From positions 1 to 58,908 of the IMG/VR virus record IMGVR_UViG_3300034375_009562: a stretch of DNA of 58,908 bases. One strand, given 5' to 3'. A model generated the notes under the pieces. The model did not search any database and had not been told where the DNA came from. It saw only the letters and a list, made by a program, of their open reading frames with translations. Every line of letters starts with the position of its first letter. Positions within the stretch are counted from its first letter, which is position 1. Origin of the DNA: a virus. The translations under genes were made by a program, and so were the position numbers. Of the stretch, positions 11,721 to 45,304 are shown one piece after another.

Positions 11721-12722
11721 AGTTTGTGATTGCCCCTCCCGACAGGGGACTTACCAACTCGCTCACAAACAAACGAGACTAAACATCAATTTTCGGGCAG
11801 GATGAGTTTAGTACATCCCCGACAAGTTTTGGGTTAACTGGTACTTATCAAACCAGCCCCTCATCTACGAACATTTAGTTGTAGTGAAGGAAAACTAGGG
11901 TAGTCGCCACCAACCTCGCCAACTACCGTGCGGCAGGATACACCCTGTTGTTCCGCCCCGACTCTCAGTTTTAGGCCGATTTAACATGCCATGCCCCTGA
12001 GACAAGGGACTACTTGAAGAGAGAGGTTTGCACTCCATTTCCGAGTTCATAAGTCTCAGGTCTTGCTAATTAGACGATCTTCAAGCAGCAAGTGAGTGGC
12101 GCTTGTAAAACTAGTAATAACTGCTTACCACTCTAAATTGGGCAGAGCCTGTAAATAAACACAGGTTGCACCTTCCTCTATTCGCCCATAGTGGCATGGT
12201 GTAGAGGTTTCACCATATAGTGAAGTGATGAGAATATTTTTTACTCACAAGCGACTAGTCAGTATCTCGTATACCATTCGCCACAACAACCTGTTAGCTA
12301 GTTGAGCAGGAGCACTACTCCCCAGGTCTACTTTTTCCCGCTGACACAGGAATATTCAGTCACACTTCGATGTGGGAGCTACCCACACAAGAAACTGGGG
12401 GGAGAACTTTTAGGTCGCTCCCCTGCCCCTCACAGAGCCGACCGCGTTGATGTAGGTAACTGCAAAACCTGTCCAAGACGGCGATATTTTATGAGCAAGC
12501 TCAAGGACTGCGGCTCAGGTCTCGTATCGCTCGTGCCTAGCGTCACGGTAACGGCGGGAACCCGATGAGTTCTTCTTTTATGTCGCGCTCATTACGACAA
12601 GAGAGACAGGCTGAGACCGATTCCGTGACTCCGTTGCATCATTAACTGGTTTTACCTTGTGCTGTTAGTGTCCCGAAGGAGACTGTGTAGCCCAGAGGAT
12701 GATGCCTACTCTCTCATTCAAT
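11695..12722 (-). ncRNA. Giant structured non-coding RNA, GOLLD/ROOL-class candidate
   Basis: About 1,030 nt have no credible CDS on the minus strand, where all neighbouring genes lie. The base composition is much richer in G+C than the flanks. A consensus promoter (12729-12757) sits at one end and a perfect intrinsic terminator (11691-11720) at the other. Local hairpins are visible, for example CCCCT/AGGGG near 11735, TGTGGG/CCCACA near 12370-12390, TGTCG/CGACA near 12580-12600, and a UUCG-type loop near 12675. Large ornate RNAs of the GOLLD and ROOL families have this size, occur in phages and lie near tRNA genes, as here (11 tRNAs within 5 kb). Being a structured RNA gene is well supported. 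The family name is inference, since I cannot run a covariance search. Confidence 0.6.
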
Positions 12723-14056: not shown

Positions 14057-14150
14057 TGGTAGGCCAGTCTGGATTCGAACCAGAATCGCTCTCTAATCTG
14101 GAGACTGTGCCGCGTATAAGGCGGGTGTTTTACCATTAAACTACTGGCCT
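14057..14150 (-). tRNA. tRNA-Ile (UAU), atypical long variable arm
   Basis: The acceptor stem AGGCCAG/CTGGCCT, D-arm GTTT/AAAC and T-arm TCTGG/CCAGA with TTCGAAT loop are all intact, and CCA is encoded. The anticodon loop CTTATAC reads AUA codons. The anticodon stem has one C-C mismatch. About 24 nt separate the anticodon and T arms, including a TCTC/GAGA hairpin, so the molecule has a class II-like variable arm unusual for an isoleucine tRNA. Confidence 0.75.
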
Positions 14151-14152
14151 AT

Positions 14153-14229
14153 TGGTACTCCCGGAGGGACTCGAACCCCCAACAACACCGTTATGAGCGG
14201 TGGGTTCTAACCAATTGAACTACAGGAGT
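14153..14229 (-). tRNA. tRNA-Met (CAU)
   Basis: Acceptor ACTCCTG/CGGGAGT, anticodon stem CACCG/CGGTG with loop CTCATAA, T-loop TTCGAGT, and CCA encoded. The CAU anticodon could also be isoleucine type (lysidine-modified); the sequence alone does not decide. The 3' end of the 14191-14508 CDS overlaps it. Confidence 0.88.
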
Positions 14230-14508
14230 AAATATTCGAGTTATCCAAGATTTTTTAGGACTCGATTGATACTTATGTATAAATTCTGGCGAGTAGTCTT
14301 GTGTTAAATAGTATGCTAAAGCAGCTTTAGCAATAGCTGTTTCGACTAGATTAACTTGAGAATCAGTATAGGCTTTCATTTTAAGCAAATCGTTTTCAGT
14401 AAGTTCTTTACCCCAATGGTCAATTAATGTTTTTGCTATAGCTTCTAGCTCAAGTTGCTTTTCAAAAGCATCAATTTCTAGATCTGCCCAAAAATCATTT
14501 CCCATCAT
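14191..14508 (-). CDS. Hypothetical helical protein ending inside tRNA-Met
   Basis: 105 residues, helical and acidic at first (EKQLELEAIAKTLIDHWGKELTENDLLKMK). The last 13 codons are read from the 5' half of the tRNA-Met gene and the TAA stop lies in its anticodon loop, giving the odd tail TPVVQLVRTHRS. A GGAGA site precedes ATGATG at 14508. The natural product probably ends this way, but the tail may simply be tolerated. No family recognised. Confidence 0.5.
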   Translation of the reverse strand: MMGNDFWADLEIDAFEKQLELEAIAKTLIDHWGKELTENDLLKMKAYTDSQVNLVETAIAKAALAYYLTQDYSPEFIHKYQSSPKKSWITRIFTPVVQLVRTHRS

Positions 14509-14680
14509 CTGTTGTATCTCCCATTCTGAAAAAGTATTTTTTCATTGCAATAGCTAAGTCATCCCCTTCGATATATACCCTGCTTGAAGGTATGCCTTCT
14601 TGAAATAAAGTAGCAAAAAGTTTACCATTATCAATAGCAAACTCTATTTCAATATTTGTCCCTTCAAATCTGTATTTCAT
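14495..14680 (-). CDS. Hypothetical protein (61 aa)
   Basis: Starts MKYRFEGTNIEIEFAIDNGK, probably beta-rich followed by a helix (GDDLAIAMKKYFFRMGD). It overlaps the next gene by 14 nt and lies between tRNA-Leu and tRNA-Met in a mixed tRNA/CDS transcript. Unknown function. Confidence 0.5.
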   Translation of the reverse strand: MKYRFEGTNIEIEFAIDNGKLFATLFQEGIPSSRVYIEGDDLAIAMKKYFFRMGDTTDDGK

Positions 14681-14694
14681 GCTATCCTCATGTT

Positions 14695-14780
14695 TGGTAC
14701 GGACGGCGAGACTCGAACTCGCACGACTTAAAGTCTCAGGATTTTAAGTCCTGTGTGTCTACCTATTCCACCACGCCCGC
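14695..14780 (-). tRNA. tRNA-Leu (UAA)
   Basis: Acceptor GCGGGCG/CGTCCGT (with G-U pairs), anticodon stem CAGGA/TCCTG with loop CTTAAAA, long class II variable arm, T-loop TTCGAGT, encoded CCA. Confidence 0.93.
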
Positions 14781-14786
14781 ATATAA

Positions 14787-14996
14787 TTAATCTTTTTCTG
14801 TTAATTCTTTAATACGAGCATAAGCAGCATATCGCGCTTCTGTTTCTTCTTTTAGTTGATGTTTTAGTAGTTCAATTTCGTTACTCAGTTGTATTACCAT
14901 TTTTCGATAGTATTCAGCTTCTTTGTCAGTCTGGTCGACTGCTTCTTGCTTTTGTAGCACAGGTTTTTTTAAAGGTATGCCAAAAGAATATTCCAT
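14787..14996 (-). CDS. Small coiled-coil protein (69 aa)
   Basis: The ATG at 14996 (MEYSFGIPLKKP) is preferred because GAGG lies 9 nt upstream; the longer frame has no site. The C-terminal two thirds is a heptad-like helix (YYRKMVIQLSNEIELLKHQLKEETEARYAAYARIKEL). Probably a dimer or trimer; function unknown. Confidence 0.5.
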   Translation of the reverse strand: MEYSFGIPLKKPVLQKQEAVDQTDKEAEYYRKMVIQLSNEIELLKHQLKEETEARYAAYARIKELTEKD

Positions 14997-15027
14997 AGTA
15001 ATTAACCTCATTTCATTTTATATTTAT

Positions 15028-15056
15028 ATAATATAATAAATTTAAGTAGCTGTAAA
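15028..15056 (-). promoter_or_regulatory. Promoter upstream of the 14996 gene
   Basis: On the minus strand TTTACA (15056-15051), 17 nt, TATTAT (15033-15028). It would restart transcription after tRNA-Trp. Confidence 0.5.
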
Positions 15057-15064
15057 GTATAAAT

Positions 15065-15139
15065 TGGCACAGGTGCGAGGATTTGAACCCCGACTTCCGG
15101 TTTTGGAGACCGTCGTGCTACCATTGACACTACACCCAT
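15065..15139 (-). tRNA. tRNA-Trp (CCA)
   Basis: Acceptor ATGGGTG/CACCTGT with G discriminator (as expected for tRNA-Trp), anticodon loop CTCCAAA, T-loop TTCAAAT, encoded CCA. Confidence 0.9.
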
Positions 15140-15140
15140 A

Positions 15141-15230
15141 TGGCGGAGAGACAGGGATTCGAACCCTGGAAGGGCTTGCACCCTTGCTGGTTTTCAAGAC
15201 CAGTGCCTTCAACCACTCAGCCATCTCTCC
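15141..15230 (-). tRNA. tRNA-Ser (UGA)
   Basis: Acceptor GGAGAGA/TCTCTCC, anticodon stem CTGGT/ACCAG with loop CTTGAAA, long variable arm, T-loop TTCGAAT, encoded CCA. Confidence 0.95.
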
Positions 15231-15233
15231 ATT

Positions 15234-15310
<77 letters not shown>

Positions 15311-15318
15311 AAGTGTTA

Positions 15319-15822
15319 TTACTTTTGTGCAACACAATAAAATGCGTGGTTCAAATCATATCCTTGAGAAACAAAACTTTTAGACCAAAGATTATCCATA
15401 TCTTCAAAGTAGTATTCCATCAAATTAGGAGTCAATGCGTGAATATGCTTTCTGTTATGCCAAGGACGCCAATATTTTTGATCAAAATGAGGTAGATATA
15501 GAAATAAAATACCACCTGGTTTTAGTTTAGAATTCCAGTACTCAAGTGCTTCTACATAGTTAGGTAGATGTTCTAAGCAGTGAGAAGAGAAAATATAATC
15601 TACTAAAGGAGGCACATCAGGAAGGTTATAAGCATCCCAAGGATCGTCAAAATCTAAATCAATTGGGATAGCTCCAGGATACGCCCATTCTTTTTTCATA
15701 CATCCAATATCAAACCCAATTCCTGAGAGTATTTCTTGAGCAAAAGGAATAGCATACTTAGACGCATGACCTTTTGTTTGGAGTATAGGATATTCCTCTC
15801 CTTTAAATTCAATTGTTTCCAT
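15319..15822 (-). CDS. Class I SAM-dependent methyltransferase (Methyltransf_11 type)
   Basis: 167 residues. FDIGCMKKEWAYPGAIPIDLD (about 37-57) gives motif I and the acidic second strand; DYIFSSHCLEHLPNYVEAL (about 74-92) is the conserved post-motif with CLEHL; LKPGGILFLYLPH follows. The protein is compact, lacking the long C-terminal part of many family members. It starts within the end of a 50-residue gene and stops just before tRNA-Arg. Substrate unknown. Confidence 0.8.
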   Translation of the reverse strand: METIEFKGEEYPILQTKGHASKYAIPFAQEILSGIGFDIGCMKKEWAYPGAIPIDLDFDDPWDAYNLPDVPPLVDYIFSSHCLEHLPNYVEALEYWNSKLKPGGILFLYLPHFDQKYWRPWHNRKHIHALTPNLMEYYFEDMDNLWSKSFVSQGYDLNHAFYCVAQK

Positions 15823-15961
15823 TTTGTAGTAACCTATCTATTTTCTTTTCAATACTTTGAAGAGTAGTTTCAATATCTTTTATAAGATCTTTTACATCTT
15901 TTGGCTCTTTTGTCTCTTCTCGTAACCTTCTAAGCATATAAGCCTCATAAGACTCTCTCAT
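15809..15961 (-). CDS. Small coiled-coil protein (50 aa)
   Basis: ATG at 15961 overlaps the upstream TGA (ATGA) and has AGGAG 6 nt upstream. The product MRESYEAYMLRRLREE... is a single amphipathic helix rich in Lys and Glu (KDLIKDIETTLQSIEKKIDRLL). It overlaps the methyltransferase start by 14 nt. Likely an oligomerising small protein; function unknown. Confidence 0.55.
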   Translation of the reverse strand: MRESYEAYMLRRLREETKEPKDVKDLIKDIETTLQSIEKKIDRLLQNGNN

Positions 15962-16263
15962 CTTAGTCTCCTGTAATGAGTTAATTCATACATTCGCTTA
16001 AATGATTTTGCTTCTGAAGAAGAAAAAAACCTAAACCAAACAGTATTTCCAAAACCATACTGCCACTGTGTCCAGTCCCACATATACTCACAATTATCTA
16101 AACACCATTGTTTTAGTACTTTAAATTCGGCACTATCATATGTGAACTTTGTTTTAAAAAATTCAATAGAATCTCCTTGAATACCTTTATTAAAAGATTC
16201 AAATTTCTTATTTTCTTTACAAAACTCATATGCTTTTTGATCGGACCAATTCTTCTTTATCAT
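15958..16263 (-). CDS. Hypothetical Trp/Phe-rich protein (101 aa)
   Basis: Complete frame MIKKNWSDQKAYEFCKENKKF..., with clustered aromatics (EYMWDWTQWQYGFGNTVWFRFF). No domain recognised. It is translationally coupled to its neighbours on both sides. Confidence 0.55.
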   Translation of the reverse strand: MIKKNWSDQKAYEFCKENKKFESFNKGIQGDSIEFFKTKFTYDSAEFKVLKQWCLDNCEYMWDWTQWQYGFGNTVWFRFFSSSEAKSFKRMYELTHYRRLR

Positions 16264-16354
16264 ATTTTTCTTTTACCTTTGTATAAATTCTTTTAGCAGT
16301 AGTCTTATTACCATAAAAAAGAACAACATTATTTACATAGATAATACAACGCAT
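16226..16354 (-). CDS. Small hypothetical protein (42 aa)
   Basis: The ATG at 16354 follows the upstream TAA by one base (TAATATG). The product reads MRCIIYVNNVVLFYGNKTTAKRIYTKVKEKY..., a small beta-hairpin-plus-helix pattern. It overlaps the next gene by 38 nt. Short length limits confidence. Confidence 0.4.
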   Translation of the reverse strand: MRCIIYVNNVVLFYGNKTTAKRIYTKVKEKYDKEELVRSKSI

Positions 16355-16355
16355 A

Positions 16356-16592
16356 TTATCTATCTCTTGCATCTTCAATATGGGTTTCTGATTTCCAGAC
16401 AATTTGGCCCTCTAAAACATATTCTACTGCGTGGATGTAATCTTTTTCTTCATCATTTAATATATTCCAAAATTTAGTAATAGAATAAAGATGTTCTCTG
16501 ACAACTTCAGGTCTATTAAGATGATAATTATGATTCATCCAGTTCTCAAGTATATCTAGTCTTTGATTAATTTTTTGCTTTAAGTCTGTCAT
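16356..16592 (-). CDS. Hypothetical helical protein starting at a tRNA 3' end
   Basis: 78 residues beginning MTDLKQKINQRLDILENWM. The ATG at 16592 lies one base after the CCA of tRNA-Glu, so no independent ribosome-binding site can exist once the tRNA is processed. An in-frame GTG at 16601 would lie inside the tRNA. It may be translated as a leaderless message. Predicted all-helical; no family recognised. Confidence 0.5.
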   Translation of the reverse strand: MTDLKQKINQRLDILENWMNHNYHLNRPEVVREHLYSITKFWNILNDEEKDYIHAVEYVLEGQIVWKSETHIEDARDR

Positions 16593-16593
16593 A

Positions 16594-16669
16594 TGGTACA
16601 CCCTACGGGATTCGAACCCGTGTTGCCGCCGTGAAAGGGCGATGTCCTAAACCACTAGACGAAGGGTGC
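16594..16669 (-). tRNA. tRNA-Glu (UUC)
   Basis: Acceptor GCACCCT/AGGGTGT, anticodon stem TCGCC/GGCGG with loop CTTTCAC, T-loop TTCGAAT, encoded CCA. Confidence 0.93.
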
Positions 16670-16670
16670 T

Positions 16671-16744
16671 TGGAGCGGCATATCGGATTCGAACCGATGA
16701 CAAGAGCTTGGAAGGCTCGCATGTTACCACTACACCAATGCCGC
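16671..16744 (-). tRNA. tRNA-Gly (UCC)
   Basis: Acceptor GCGGCAT/ATGCCGC, anticodon loop CTTCCAA, T-loop TTCGAAT, encoded CCA. Separated from tRNA-Glu by one base. Confidence 0.94.
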
Positions 16745-16750
16745 GTCATA

Positions 16751-16972
16751 TTAAAGATACTCTTCAACAATTTCTAACTTATCTTTGTAGTCTGCCATTT
16801 CAGCAATTTCTTTTTCAATTTCATCCATAATGTCGCCATGCTCTCCAATCCCAGCTGGATTCTCTAGCAAGTTTTCAACATTAATTAGATGTTTTTCAAT
16901 ATGTGCTTCAAAGTGAAGACGAAGTGCTTCTTTGATGCGTTCTTGCATACTAATATGTGATCGTTGTTTCAT
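16751..16972 (-). CDS. Hypothetical acidic helical protein (73 aa)
   Basis: The start at 16972 (MKQRSHISMQERIKEAL) is chosen because GAGGG lies 5-6 nt upstream. Mostly helical (LHFEAHIEKHLINVENLLEN ... IMDEIEKEIAEMADYKDKLE). It lies between tRNA-Leu and tRNA-Gly. Unknown function. Confidence 0.55.
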   Translation of the reverse strand: MKQRSHISMQERIKEALRLHFEAHIEKHLINVENLLENPAGIGEHGDIMDEIEKEIAEMADYKDKLEIVEEYL

Positions 16973-17093
16973 TTTACCCTCATTAAAGTTGATGTGGGCT
17001 AACCGTTGACCCACACGCGTGTATTAAGGCACGACCCTACCCAGGTGGCACCATCTGCTTAGTTATTTTACAAGAGAAGCAGAACTCTTAAAC

Positions 17094-17178
17094 TGGTGCC
17101 CATGGAGGGAGTCGAACCCCCACGCCGTAAAGCACAGGTACCTAAAACCTGCGTGTCTACCAATTCCACCACATGGGC
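17094..17178 (-). tRNA. tRNA-Leu (UAG)
   Basis: Acceptor GCCCATG/CATGGGC, anticodon stem CAGGT/ACCTG with loop TTTAGGT, class II variable arm, T-loop TTCGACT, encoded CCA. Confidence 0.94.
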
Positions 17179-17181
17179 TTG

Positions 17182-17257
17182 TGGCTCCGACTGCAGGACT
17201 CGAACCTGCGACAGGGTGATTAACAGTCACCTGCTCTACCAACTGAGCTAAGTCGGA
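17182..17257 (-). tRNA. tRNA-Asn (GUU)
   Basis: Acceptor TCCGACT/AGTCGGA, anticodon loop CTGTTAA, T-loop TTCGAGT, encoded CCA. Confidence 0.95.
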
Positions 17258-17260
17258 ATA

Positions 17261-17336
17261 TGGTGCTGAGTGGAGGACTTGAACCCCCAGCCTCTGGAGT
17301 ACAAAACCAGTGCTCTACCAGTTGAGCTAACTCAGC
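17261..17336 (-). tRNA. tRNA-Thr (UGU)
   Basis: Acceptor GCTGAGT/ACTCAGC, anticodon loop TTTGTAC, T-loop TTCAAGT, encoded CCA. First tRNA of the cluster in transcription order, 16 nt after the promoter. Confidence 0.93.
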
Positions 17337-44341: not shown

Positions 44342-44581
44342 ATGAAAAAGGTTTTAGGTATTTACGATATTAATAATAAAATATATGTTCAAAGAGAACT
44401 ATATAAACTATCTCTTTTAGGCTATGCAACTGAAGCTAAAGATAACTCAGACTTTTCTAAGAGATATTTAACACCGTGTTTTATCTGTTTAAAACACGGT
44501 AGTGTAGTTTCTAAACTGTTTGGGAAATACTCTTCTAACAAGGTAGAAACTTGGGTAAAAAATAAATTAAAGGTAACTTAA
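44342..44581 (+). CDS. Hypothetical protein, first gene of the right arm (79 aa)
   Basis: GGAG 7 nt before ATG. Begins MKKVLGIYDINNKIYVQRELYKLSLLGY; the centre TPCFICLKHGSVVSKLFGKYSSNKVETWV has a CxxC-like pair. Its TAA overlaps the bS21-like start. No family recognised. The plus-strand promoter for the arm was not clear. Confidence 0.6.
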   Translation: MKKVLGIYDINNKIYVQRELYKLSLLGYATEAKDNSDFSKRYLTPCFICLKHGSVVSKLFGKYSSNKVETWVKNKLKVT

Positions 44582-44856
44582 TGAAAATTAATGTAAAAAG
44601 ATTTAATAACGATGTTGGTAAAGCATATAAAGTGATGATGAGAAAGTTAAATAACGAAGGCTTTTACACAGATCTTAAGAAAAGAGAGTACTTTACTAGC
44701 AAAGGTGAGCAGCAGAGACTTGATAAAAAAGTTGGTAGAAAAAGATTTTTAAAAGCTGAAAAGAAAAGACAAGAATTATTTGAAAAATTAGAACGAAGAA
44801 TACCTAACTCTAAAAGACCGAATAATAATAGGCCAAAGACCAAAAGCAAAAATTAA
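44581..44856 (+). CDS. rpsU: Ribosomal protein bS21-like
   Basis: 91 residues. NNDVGKAYKVMMRKLNNEG, then FYTDLKKREYFTSKGEQQR and KKVGRKRFLKAEKKRQEL follow the bS21 consensus (DVALRRFKR.CEK.G...E...REYYEKP...R.RK......R), with a longer basic tail. bS21 helps ribosomes start on mRNAs; marine phages are known to carry it. It sits directly before the tmRNA gene, forming a translation module. Start overlaps the upstream TAA. Confidence 0.75.
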   Translation: MKINVKRFNNDVGKAYKVMMRKLNNEGFYTDLKKREYFTSKGEQQRLDKKVGRKRFLKAEKKRQELFEKLERRIPNSKRPNNNRPKTKSKN

Positions 44857-44865
44857 TTTTTGCTT
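44844..44865. repeat. 22-bp perfect palindrome at the bS21 stop codon
   Basis: AAGCAAAAATT followed by its exact inverse AATTTTTGCTT, spanning the bS21 stop codon and touching the -35 box of the tmRNA promoter (44864-44869). It could be a weak terminator for the small operon or an operator. Confidence 0.6.
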
Positions 44866-44892
44866 GCTAAGTACTAAATTTTTTGTTAAATT
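44864..44892 (+). promoter_or_regulatory. Promoter of the tmRNA
   Basis: TTGCTA (44864-44869), 17 nt, TAAATT (44887-44892). The predicted start near 44899 precedes the acceptor piece. Confidence 0.6.
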
Positions 44893-44963
44893 ATATTCAA
44901 TAGCTTCGTTGAAGCAAGTCAAACACTAGACTGGACGCGGGGGCAGTACCCGCCGCCTCCACC

Positions 44964-45102
44964 ATAAACACACGATGAAGTATTGCAAAAACTGTAAACA
45001 TTATTGGACAAAAGGCACTAAAGGTAAATGGTGCTGTAAGTTTGGTAAAAAATGCGAAAAAGCAATGGGACATTGTAAACTAAATAATGGTCGTGTGTTT
45101 AT
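44964..45102 (+). repeat. 12-bp inverted repeat flanking the tmRNA intervening segment
   Basis: ATAAACACACGA (44964-44975) and TCGTGTGTTTAT (45091-45102) are exact complements. With the acceptor stem (44954-44960/45106-45112) and two further pairs between them, they form a continuous helix of about 21 pairs with one mismatch. The intervening RNA is thus a long hairpin from which the two tmRNA pieces are cut. Confidence 0.8.
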
Positions 45103-45118
45103 GATGGGGGCGAACTAG
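44975..45118 (+). CDS. Cys-rich mini-protein (47 aa) nested inside the tmRNA gene
   Basis: The intervening segment of the tmRNA has one open frame: MKYCKNCKHYW, then GKWCCKFGKKCEK and MGHCKL, ending VFMMGAN and TAG inside the 5' acceptor strand of the coding piece. The six cysteines in CxxC and CC/C...C spacing look like the zinc-binding mini-proteins common in phages (YCKxCKHY start). The ATG lies at the top of the processing hairpin, and no Shine-Dalgarno is present. Expression and processing would compete: translated RNA could not be cut into tmRNA. It may be translated from the excised segment or be a relic. Confidence 0.45.
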   Translation: MKYCKNCKHYWTKGTKGKWCCKFGKKCEKAMGHCKLNNGRVFMMGAN

Positions 45119-45304
45119 GATCGACAGGTGGTTAATAGATAAGTGGAGAAGCAGGTGCGCAAGCGACCTTAACCGCAAGATTAAAACATCCGCAAACGAT
45201 AACTTTGCAATCGAGGACATCCGCTTAGCGGCATAGTCTCATGGGGTATGGTTCCACCTAGCAACAGAACGGGCCGATTTTTTATAATAAAAGTGAGTAA
45301 AATA

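Follow-up and report, generated by a model that had tools for sequence, protein, structure and literature searches.

A probable small protein gene carried in the intervening spacer of a permuted phage tmRNA

Introduction

A tmRNA has been regarded as encoding one short tag. Could the precursor of a permuted phage tmRNA carry a complete protein gene as well, within the spacer that has to be cut out to make the mature RNA? The question is raised by a virus record from IMG/VR (IMGVR_UViG_3300034375_009562; 58,908 nt, analysed over its whole length and hereafter called the window), in which an earlier note had pointed to a Cys-rich mini-protein frame inside a tmRNA intervening segment. From comparisons of this locus with its relatives, we regard the frame as a likely genuine small gene of the phage, which would be cargo in the spacer of a working permuted tmRNA and would be expressed from the precursor.

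Results

A permuted tmRNA with an intact tag frame

An Rfam search placed a permuted tmRNA at 44903-45236 of the window (RF04321, 95.0 bits), and RF01849 matched 44860-45279 with 96.8 bits, both models scoring above their gathering scores; an ARAGORN run on the window missed this tmRNA. The acceptor-side piece comes first and the coding piece second, with a 7-bp acceptor stem (GGGGGCG paired with CGCCTCC) and an encoded CCA (Table 1). The tag frame, ANDNFAIEDIRLAA, is intact and ends as expected of a tmRNA tag (-LAA or similar). A scan for consensus sigma-70 promoters upstream of the tmRNA found no site.

Cuts behind the CCA and at the mature 5' end (45106) would be expected to release the spacer. 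The two ends of the spacer are predicted to form a 12-bp helix that extends the acceptor stem and whose 5' arm takes in the A of the start codon, and the predicted fold of the spacer is stable (z=-6.5).

Table 1. Parts of the permuted tmRNA and of its spacer in the window
Feature	Position	Strand	Evidence
Acceptor-side piece, transcribed first, including the T-arm	44903..44964	+	Rfam RF04321/RF01849 alignment, sequence
Acceptor 3' strand, CGCCTCC	44954-44960	+	window sequence
Encoded CCA	44962-44964	+	window sequence
Predicted spacer-end helix, 5' arm, ATAAACACACGA	44964..44975	+	sequence, folding
Intervening spacer, 141 nt	44965..45105	+	Rfam alignment, acceptor pairing search
Putative Cys-rich gene, MKYCKNCKHYWTKGTKGKWCCKFGKKCEKAMGHCKLNNGRVFMMGAN, 47 aa, ATG start, TAG stop	44975..45118	+	ORF list, homologues, dN/dS
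Predicted spacer-end helix, 3' arm, TCGTGTGTTTAT, encoding some of the frame's last codons	45091..45102	+	sequence, folding
tmRNA coding piece: 5' acceptor strand, tag region and 3' end	45106..45279	+	Rfam RF01849
5' acceptor strand, GGGGGCG	45106-45112	+	window sequence
Intact tag reading frame, ANDNFAIEDIRLAA followed by a stop	45192..45236	+	translation

The surroundings hold other features. A gene for a bS21 ribosomal protein homologue (Pfam PF01165, E 4.7e-7; 44581-44856, + strand) lies directly upstream of the tmRNA, its end 46 nt from the RF04321 match. Elsewhere in the window we found a manA RNA motif (RF01745, 61.3 bits; 12218-12387, - strand) and eleven tRNA genes within 3.3 kb (14057-17336, - strand).

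The 47-codon frame in the spacer

The ORF list contains exactly the complete 47-codon frame that had been claimed for the spacer, and its translation has the six reported cysteines, at positions 4, 7, 20, 21, 27 and 34. The frame was also said to end within the acceptor stem, which needs correction: it reads across the entire 5' acceptor strand, and its stop codon (45116-45118) lies four bases beyond that strand, so that its final 13 nt are mature tmRNA sequence. The frame occupies 93% of the 141-nt spacer. In shuffles of the window spacer, an ATG frame of equal coverage arose with p=0.003; for the spacer allele of a second phage (L002, see below) the same test gave p 0.003-0.03, varying with how the ends were held fixed.

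As had been noted, the window frame lacks a Shine-Dalgarno (SD) sequence. Its start codon sits at the edge of the predicted 12-bp helix, and folding predictions pair the A and U of this codon in every state examined, namely the precursor, the excised spacer and the nascent RNA that still lacks the 3' arm. This predicted pairing speaks against strong initiation.

The window protein, whose cysteines the earlier note had described as zinc-ribbon-like in spacing, had no significant family in Pfam or PHROGs, and its AlphaFold (AF2) model, with a pLDDT of 50, was of too low quality to search for related folds such as a zinc ribbon. Five invariant cysteines and a histidine suggest a small metal-binding protein.

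A family of free-standing mini-proteins

A homologous frame in relatives, which the earlier note had proposed to look for, was found in several settings. An identical tmRNA is present on another contig of the same phage type as the window (L001), and a different phage (L002) carries the Cys-rich gene at the same spacer position with one SNP (M31I). Four other records (L003-L006) hold free-standing homologues with no tmRNA, and an alignment search added a further set (L315-L330). A tblastn search of isolated phages with the window protein gave no match, but with the L003 homologue as query it reached Puniceispirillum phage HMO-2011 and Caulobacter phages. In HMO-2011-type and Caulobacter phages the homologue lies behind nrdJ, overlapping the end of this class II RNR gene. 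Bacterial genomes searched with conserved peptides gave no homologue of the Cys-rich protein.

Eleven aligned homologues share M1, C4, C7, W19, C20, C21, G24, G32, H33, C34, K35 and G39, and the window protein has all the residues that are invariant in the free-standing family (HMO-2011, CcrColossus, L315). The expected conservation of the cysteines thus holds for five of the six, which the more distant free-standing homologues keep as well; C27 is confined to the window, L002 and L315. Judged by these alignments, the Cys-rich frame is a member of a real gene family.

The same gene outside and inside the spacer

The L315 contig has a permuted tmRNA (111 bits) with a 36-nt spacer, and its Cys-rich gene is free-standing, between the tmRNA and an apparent Rieske oxygenase gene. 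The encoded protein is 79% identical to that of the window, with 83% identity at the DNA level and all six cysteines kept. Low dN/dS had been named as a further sign of a real gene, and the comparison of the window with the free-standing L315 gene gave 0.095; the differences fall 2/4/15 on the three codon positions (p=0.0009). A putative Rieske-type ring-hydroxylating oxygenase gene, recognised by reading the sequence, lies behind phage tmRNAs in several contigs, L315 and L002 among them.

L002 is nearly collinear with L315 and has the same apparent Rieske oxygenase gene behind its tmRNA. Of a free Cys-rich gene, L002 retains behind the tmRNA only AACACGAAGAA-GAACAAAAAACGTGTATTTATTAAGG, a remnant corresponding to the final codons of the L315 copy. 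This scar, together with the copy in the spacer, indicates that the free copy was deleted in the lineage that holds the spacer copy; L002 is a single 7.5-kb metagenome contig, for which mis-assembly via the conserved tmRNA ends is possible in principle. The L002 spacer copy differs from that of the window by a single SNP, and the block shared by the two extends 37 nt to the left and 24 nt to the right of the spacer, beyond which the flanks are unrelated. From these boundaries we infer transfer of the cassette between phages, with the conserved tRNA-like ends as the sites of recombination. A possible basis of the exchange is the likeness between the gene's 3' end, CGTGTATTTATTAAGG, and the spacer's 3' arm, CGTGTGTTTATGATGG.

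Two distinct spacer alleles of the Cys-rich family are known, one amino-acid-changing SNP apart, so the purifying selection that we see within spacers comes from other families and not from this one.

Spacers as an exchangeable slot

Comparison of related phages showed that, with the surrounding tmRNA intact, the spacer behaves as a slot that is either empty or short or filled with one of at least 15 unrelated small genes or with a two-gene operon. In one tmRNA-Rieske neighbourhood the spacer measures 29, 36 or 74 nt, or holds a CINNYS, MKHYxNW, Cys-rich or KITKEN gene. The KITKEN gene is found within spacers (L566-576, L583-594), free-standing upstream of the tmRNA (L577-579) and free with no tmRNA nearby (L595-603). 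In L579 the spacer has an NWDWHW gene and the KITKEN gene lies outside, while in L580-582 a 388-nt spacer (L580:1859-2246) contains a two-gene operon with a GTGA overlap, in which KITKEN is second. The free KITKEN gene beside the tmRNA in L577 (2001-2280) has retained a tail, TAGTGTGATTATAAT, similar to the 3' arms of tmRNA spacers, as if this gene had left a spacer.

Coding spacers among viral permuted tmRNAs

Pattern scans of IMG/VR, together with loci from protein-based scans, yielded 371 permuted genes with 235 distinct spacers of 4 nt to 464 nt; two doubtful 'spacers' (706 nt in L020, 368 nt in L356) were apparent mis-extractions and were left out of the evidence. A terminal inverted repeat or end helix was present in 59 of the 63 viral spacers of at least 100 nt. 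All 14 ORF-bearing loci checked by Rfam were permuted tmRNAs with intact tags.

Long spacers mostly contain an ORF, and the coverage by ORFs was assessed on spacers from scans that had not been selected for ORFs. Among 48 independent clusters of viral spacers of at least 100 nt, 23 have an ORF at p<=0.05, against 2.4 expected, and 13 have one at p<=0.01; the mean coverage is 0.64, compared with 0.34 in shuffled spacers and a maximum of 0.42 over 1000 shuffled sets. Viral spacers below 100 nt are mostly non-coding, with no significant ORF.

Across the 235 distinct spacers we counted about 15 unrelated protein families. They include the Melnitz family (MFKWL...ITRDYF), which has an SD sequence (GGAG) and a 24-nt in-frame indel; the hydrophobic KITKENTPNKY (KITKEN) family of 76-78 aa; and the GDLSKHRLHT..YEDLC, NWDWHW, VTYLLLRF, DNQLW, SSCCTRKRTWKD, CINNYS and MKHYxNW families. 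In six spacer families dN/dS was 0.10-0.36 in closest-pair, independent comparisons, and over all pairs it ranged from 0.04 to 0.38 in nine families. Independent pairs showed a strong third-position bias in NWDWHW (4/5/30) and KITKEN (22/8/59); the codon-position bias in independent pairs of the Melnitz and DNQLW families was not significant.

An SD sequence precedes the ORF in 13 of the 18 families with a leader of at least 14 nt (shuffled mean 2.8; 0/2000 reach 13). One of the scans behind this count had selected for SD sites, although nearly all the families tested had turned up in the unselected ones too. In fourteen families or single cases, that of the window included, the ORF begins 3-12 nt after the CCA, in five of them exactly 7 nt after it, and most have no SD. 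The missing SD of the window frame is thus common to about a dozen other CCA-proximal families or single cases, some with conserved proteins.

The position of the stop codon varies. In about nine families it is at +13 of the mature tmRNA; in the Melnitz and KKVYG families it lies deeper still, and in about ten it falls within the spacer (-1 or -7 to -17).

A 464-nt spacer (L117:1995-2458, - strand) holds an HNH homing endonuclease gene (PHROG 655, E 2e-13) preceded by an SD; the endonuclease has relatives in isolated phages and could drive the spread of spacers. In the cultured phage Melnitz (MZ577097.1) and its sister isolates, the tmRNA spacer contains a 54-codon frame with the SD GGAG (L009:2544-2685) and the predicted product MFKWLSKTRLVVITRDYF...; the record MZ577097.1 has no CDS annotated at this frame.

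Four non-coding spacers (L110:3824-3942; L013:1349-1438, L024:2386-2478 and L092:4621-4739, these three on the - strand) have a T-arm-like hairpin, for example ATAGGTTCGAATCCTAT, inside the end helix. They resemble tRNA derivatives; within them Rfam gave no match to a tRNA.

Spacers of alphaproteobacterial tmRNAs

A pattern scan of bacterial genomes gave only 5 permuted genes in 115 loci, and 190 alphaproteobacterial genomes were therefore searched with Rfam. Of the 35 spacers extracted, 32 measure 5-56 nt; the other three (115-232 nt) include repeat-like stretches and lack a credible ORF. The 232-nt spacer of one genome (L560) is filled by a duplicated repeat unit, GCGTACTTTTATGTACGTGAGTATT.... 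In this sample, then, spacers with an ORF appear to be a feature of phages, the alphaproteobacterial ones being short and holding no such genes.

Discussion

Several observations support the protein gene in a tmRNA spacer that the earlier note had suggested: homologues within spacers and outside them, conserved cysteines, low dN/dS and a gain/loss event. The window gene is one of a widespread class, and many marine phages appear to hold small protein genes in their tmRNA spacers. How might such a gene be expressed? We propose that it lacks its own promoter and that the tmRNA precursor would serve as its message. Owing to the permuted order, the acceptor stem could close only once transcription has passed through the spacer and the second piece, and this delay would give ribosomes time to translate the frame before excision, for which the expected cutters are RNase P and the enzymes that process tRNA 3' ends. 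The excised RNA would carry a leader of 10 nt ahead of the AUG and as such could itself serve as a near-leaderless mRNA. The stop codon of the window frame lies in the mature tmRNA and would be removed by processing, so that the message would be complete only on the uncut precursor. A coupling of spacer-gene translation to RNA processing appears plausible.

The strongest rival reading, comparable to S23, is that the frame is an untranslated passenger: the spacer would tolerate insertions that preserve the helix, nearby genes would enter it by recombination, and the RNA would be degraded after excision. The absence of an SD in the window and the predicted pairing of its AUG agree with this, as does the S23p ORF of Coxiella, which persists although its protein is apparently not made in vivo (PMC4990558). 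Against an untranslated passenger stand protein-level selection in spacer-only comparisons of several families, the strong enrichment of SD sites in spacer families, and L002, which lost the free copy and retains the one in the spacer; we regard this reading as improbable.

Returning to the frame as an expressed cargo gene, a refinement would add a control like that of arfA. The RNase P cut would turn the message into a non-stop mRNA, its product would be tagged by the tmRNA of the same precursor, and the protein would accumulate only when maturation or trans-translation is overloaded. There is a precedent in arfA itself (PMC3989581), and in the window and about nine families the stop is found 13 nt into the mature tmRNA, in the Melnitz family deeper still. 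However, other families stop inside the spacer, and the window gene also exists free-standing with an ordinary stop. Such control seems unlikely to us as an account of the window; given the several families that stop within the spacer, an arfA-like loop may operate in some cases and is no general rule, and we rejected a universal loss of the stop on processing for the same reason.

A broader version would have the slot exchanged by recombination among marine phages, the protein made from the uncut precursor only, and stopless spacers tagged by their own tmRNA, the cargo reporting or feeding back on ribosome rescue; we offer it tentatively, as a doubtful extension of the cargo reading.

Finally, a chance open frame in an AT-rich spacer that matters as RNA only is very unlikely: most viral spacers below 100 nt have no significant ORF, the window spacer folds stably and the coverage of a single spacer (p about 0.003-0.03) is not overwhelming alone, but homologues with conserved cysteines occur outside any tmRNA, the substitutions are biased towards synonymous ones and spacers as a group have an excess of ORFs.

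If spacer genes are translated, many phage tmRNA annotations, that of the cultured phage Melnitz included, hide proteins. One transcript would then give rise to a ribosome-rescue RNA and to an mRNA whose stop can be removed by RNA maturation, and the permuted tmRNA precursor would offer a compact natural system for the competition between translation and tRNA-type processing.

Comparison with known systems

Alphaproteobacteria and marine phages, among them Methylophilales phage Melnitz, have permuted tmRNAs with the same acceptor stem, tag and spacer architecture as that of the window (PMC9004378). As far as its accessible text goes, this earlier work treated the spacer as empty and makes no mention of a spacer ORF, whereas the Melnitz spacer itself has a frame. 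Our literature search, which lay mostly outside subscription journals, returned no account of a protein gene within the spacer of a permuted tmRNA.

In a 2025 survey of 97,179 tmRNA genes, one intervening sequence contained a tRNA-Ala and another a repetitive element, and homing endonucleases were mentioned for group I introns only (PMC11915505). These introns likewise place a protein gene in a removed part of the tmRNA, and an HNH endonuclease is also found in the L117 spacer. They differ in that they sit in the T-loop, are self-splicing and carry LAGLIDADG genes (PMC11915505), while the permuted-tmRNA spacer is an intervening sequence that is not spliced and holds mostly non-endonuclease genes. 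A group I intron in the window tmRNA was rejected, no intron family being among the Rfam matches in the window.

In E. coli arfA, RNase III removes the stop codon and trans-translation represses the gene (PMC3989581). Here too a small gene would have a message that loses its stop by endonucleolytic processing, but arfA encodes a rescue factor and lies outside any tmRNA precursor, which limits the possible parallel to regulation.

Closer in kind is the IVS in the 23S rRNA of Coxiella burnetii, which carries the S23 ORF and whose protein is probably not made (PMC4990558). In both systems a protein ORF lies in an excised segment of a structural RNA precursor, the functional RNA is left in pieces, and horizontal transfer has been proposed. 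The IVS, however, involves 23S rRNA, RNase III and one protein, as opposed to tmRNA and the expected tRNA-processing enzymes, and we rejected an S23-type element as the identity of the window case on account of its tmRNA host and of a protein with no Pfam match. Moreover, the tmRNA slot takes many unrelated small genes, several with purifying selection and SD sequences. As a kind, a protein ORF within a segment that is cut out of a structural RNA without splicing would thus be known; its occurrence in tmRNA is apparently new and the diversity of the putative cargo unusual.
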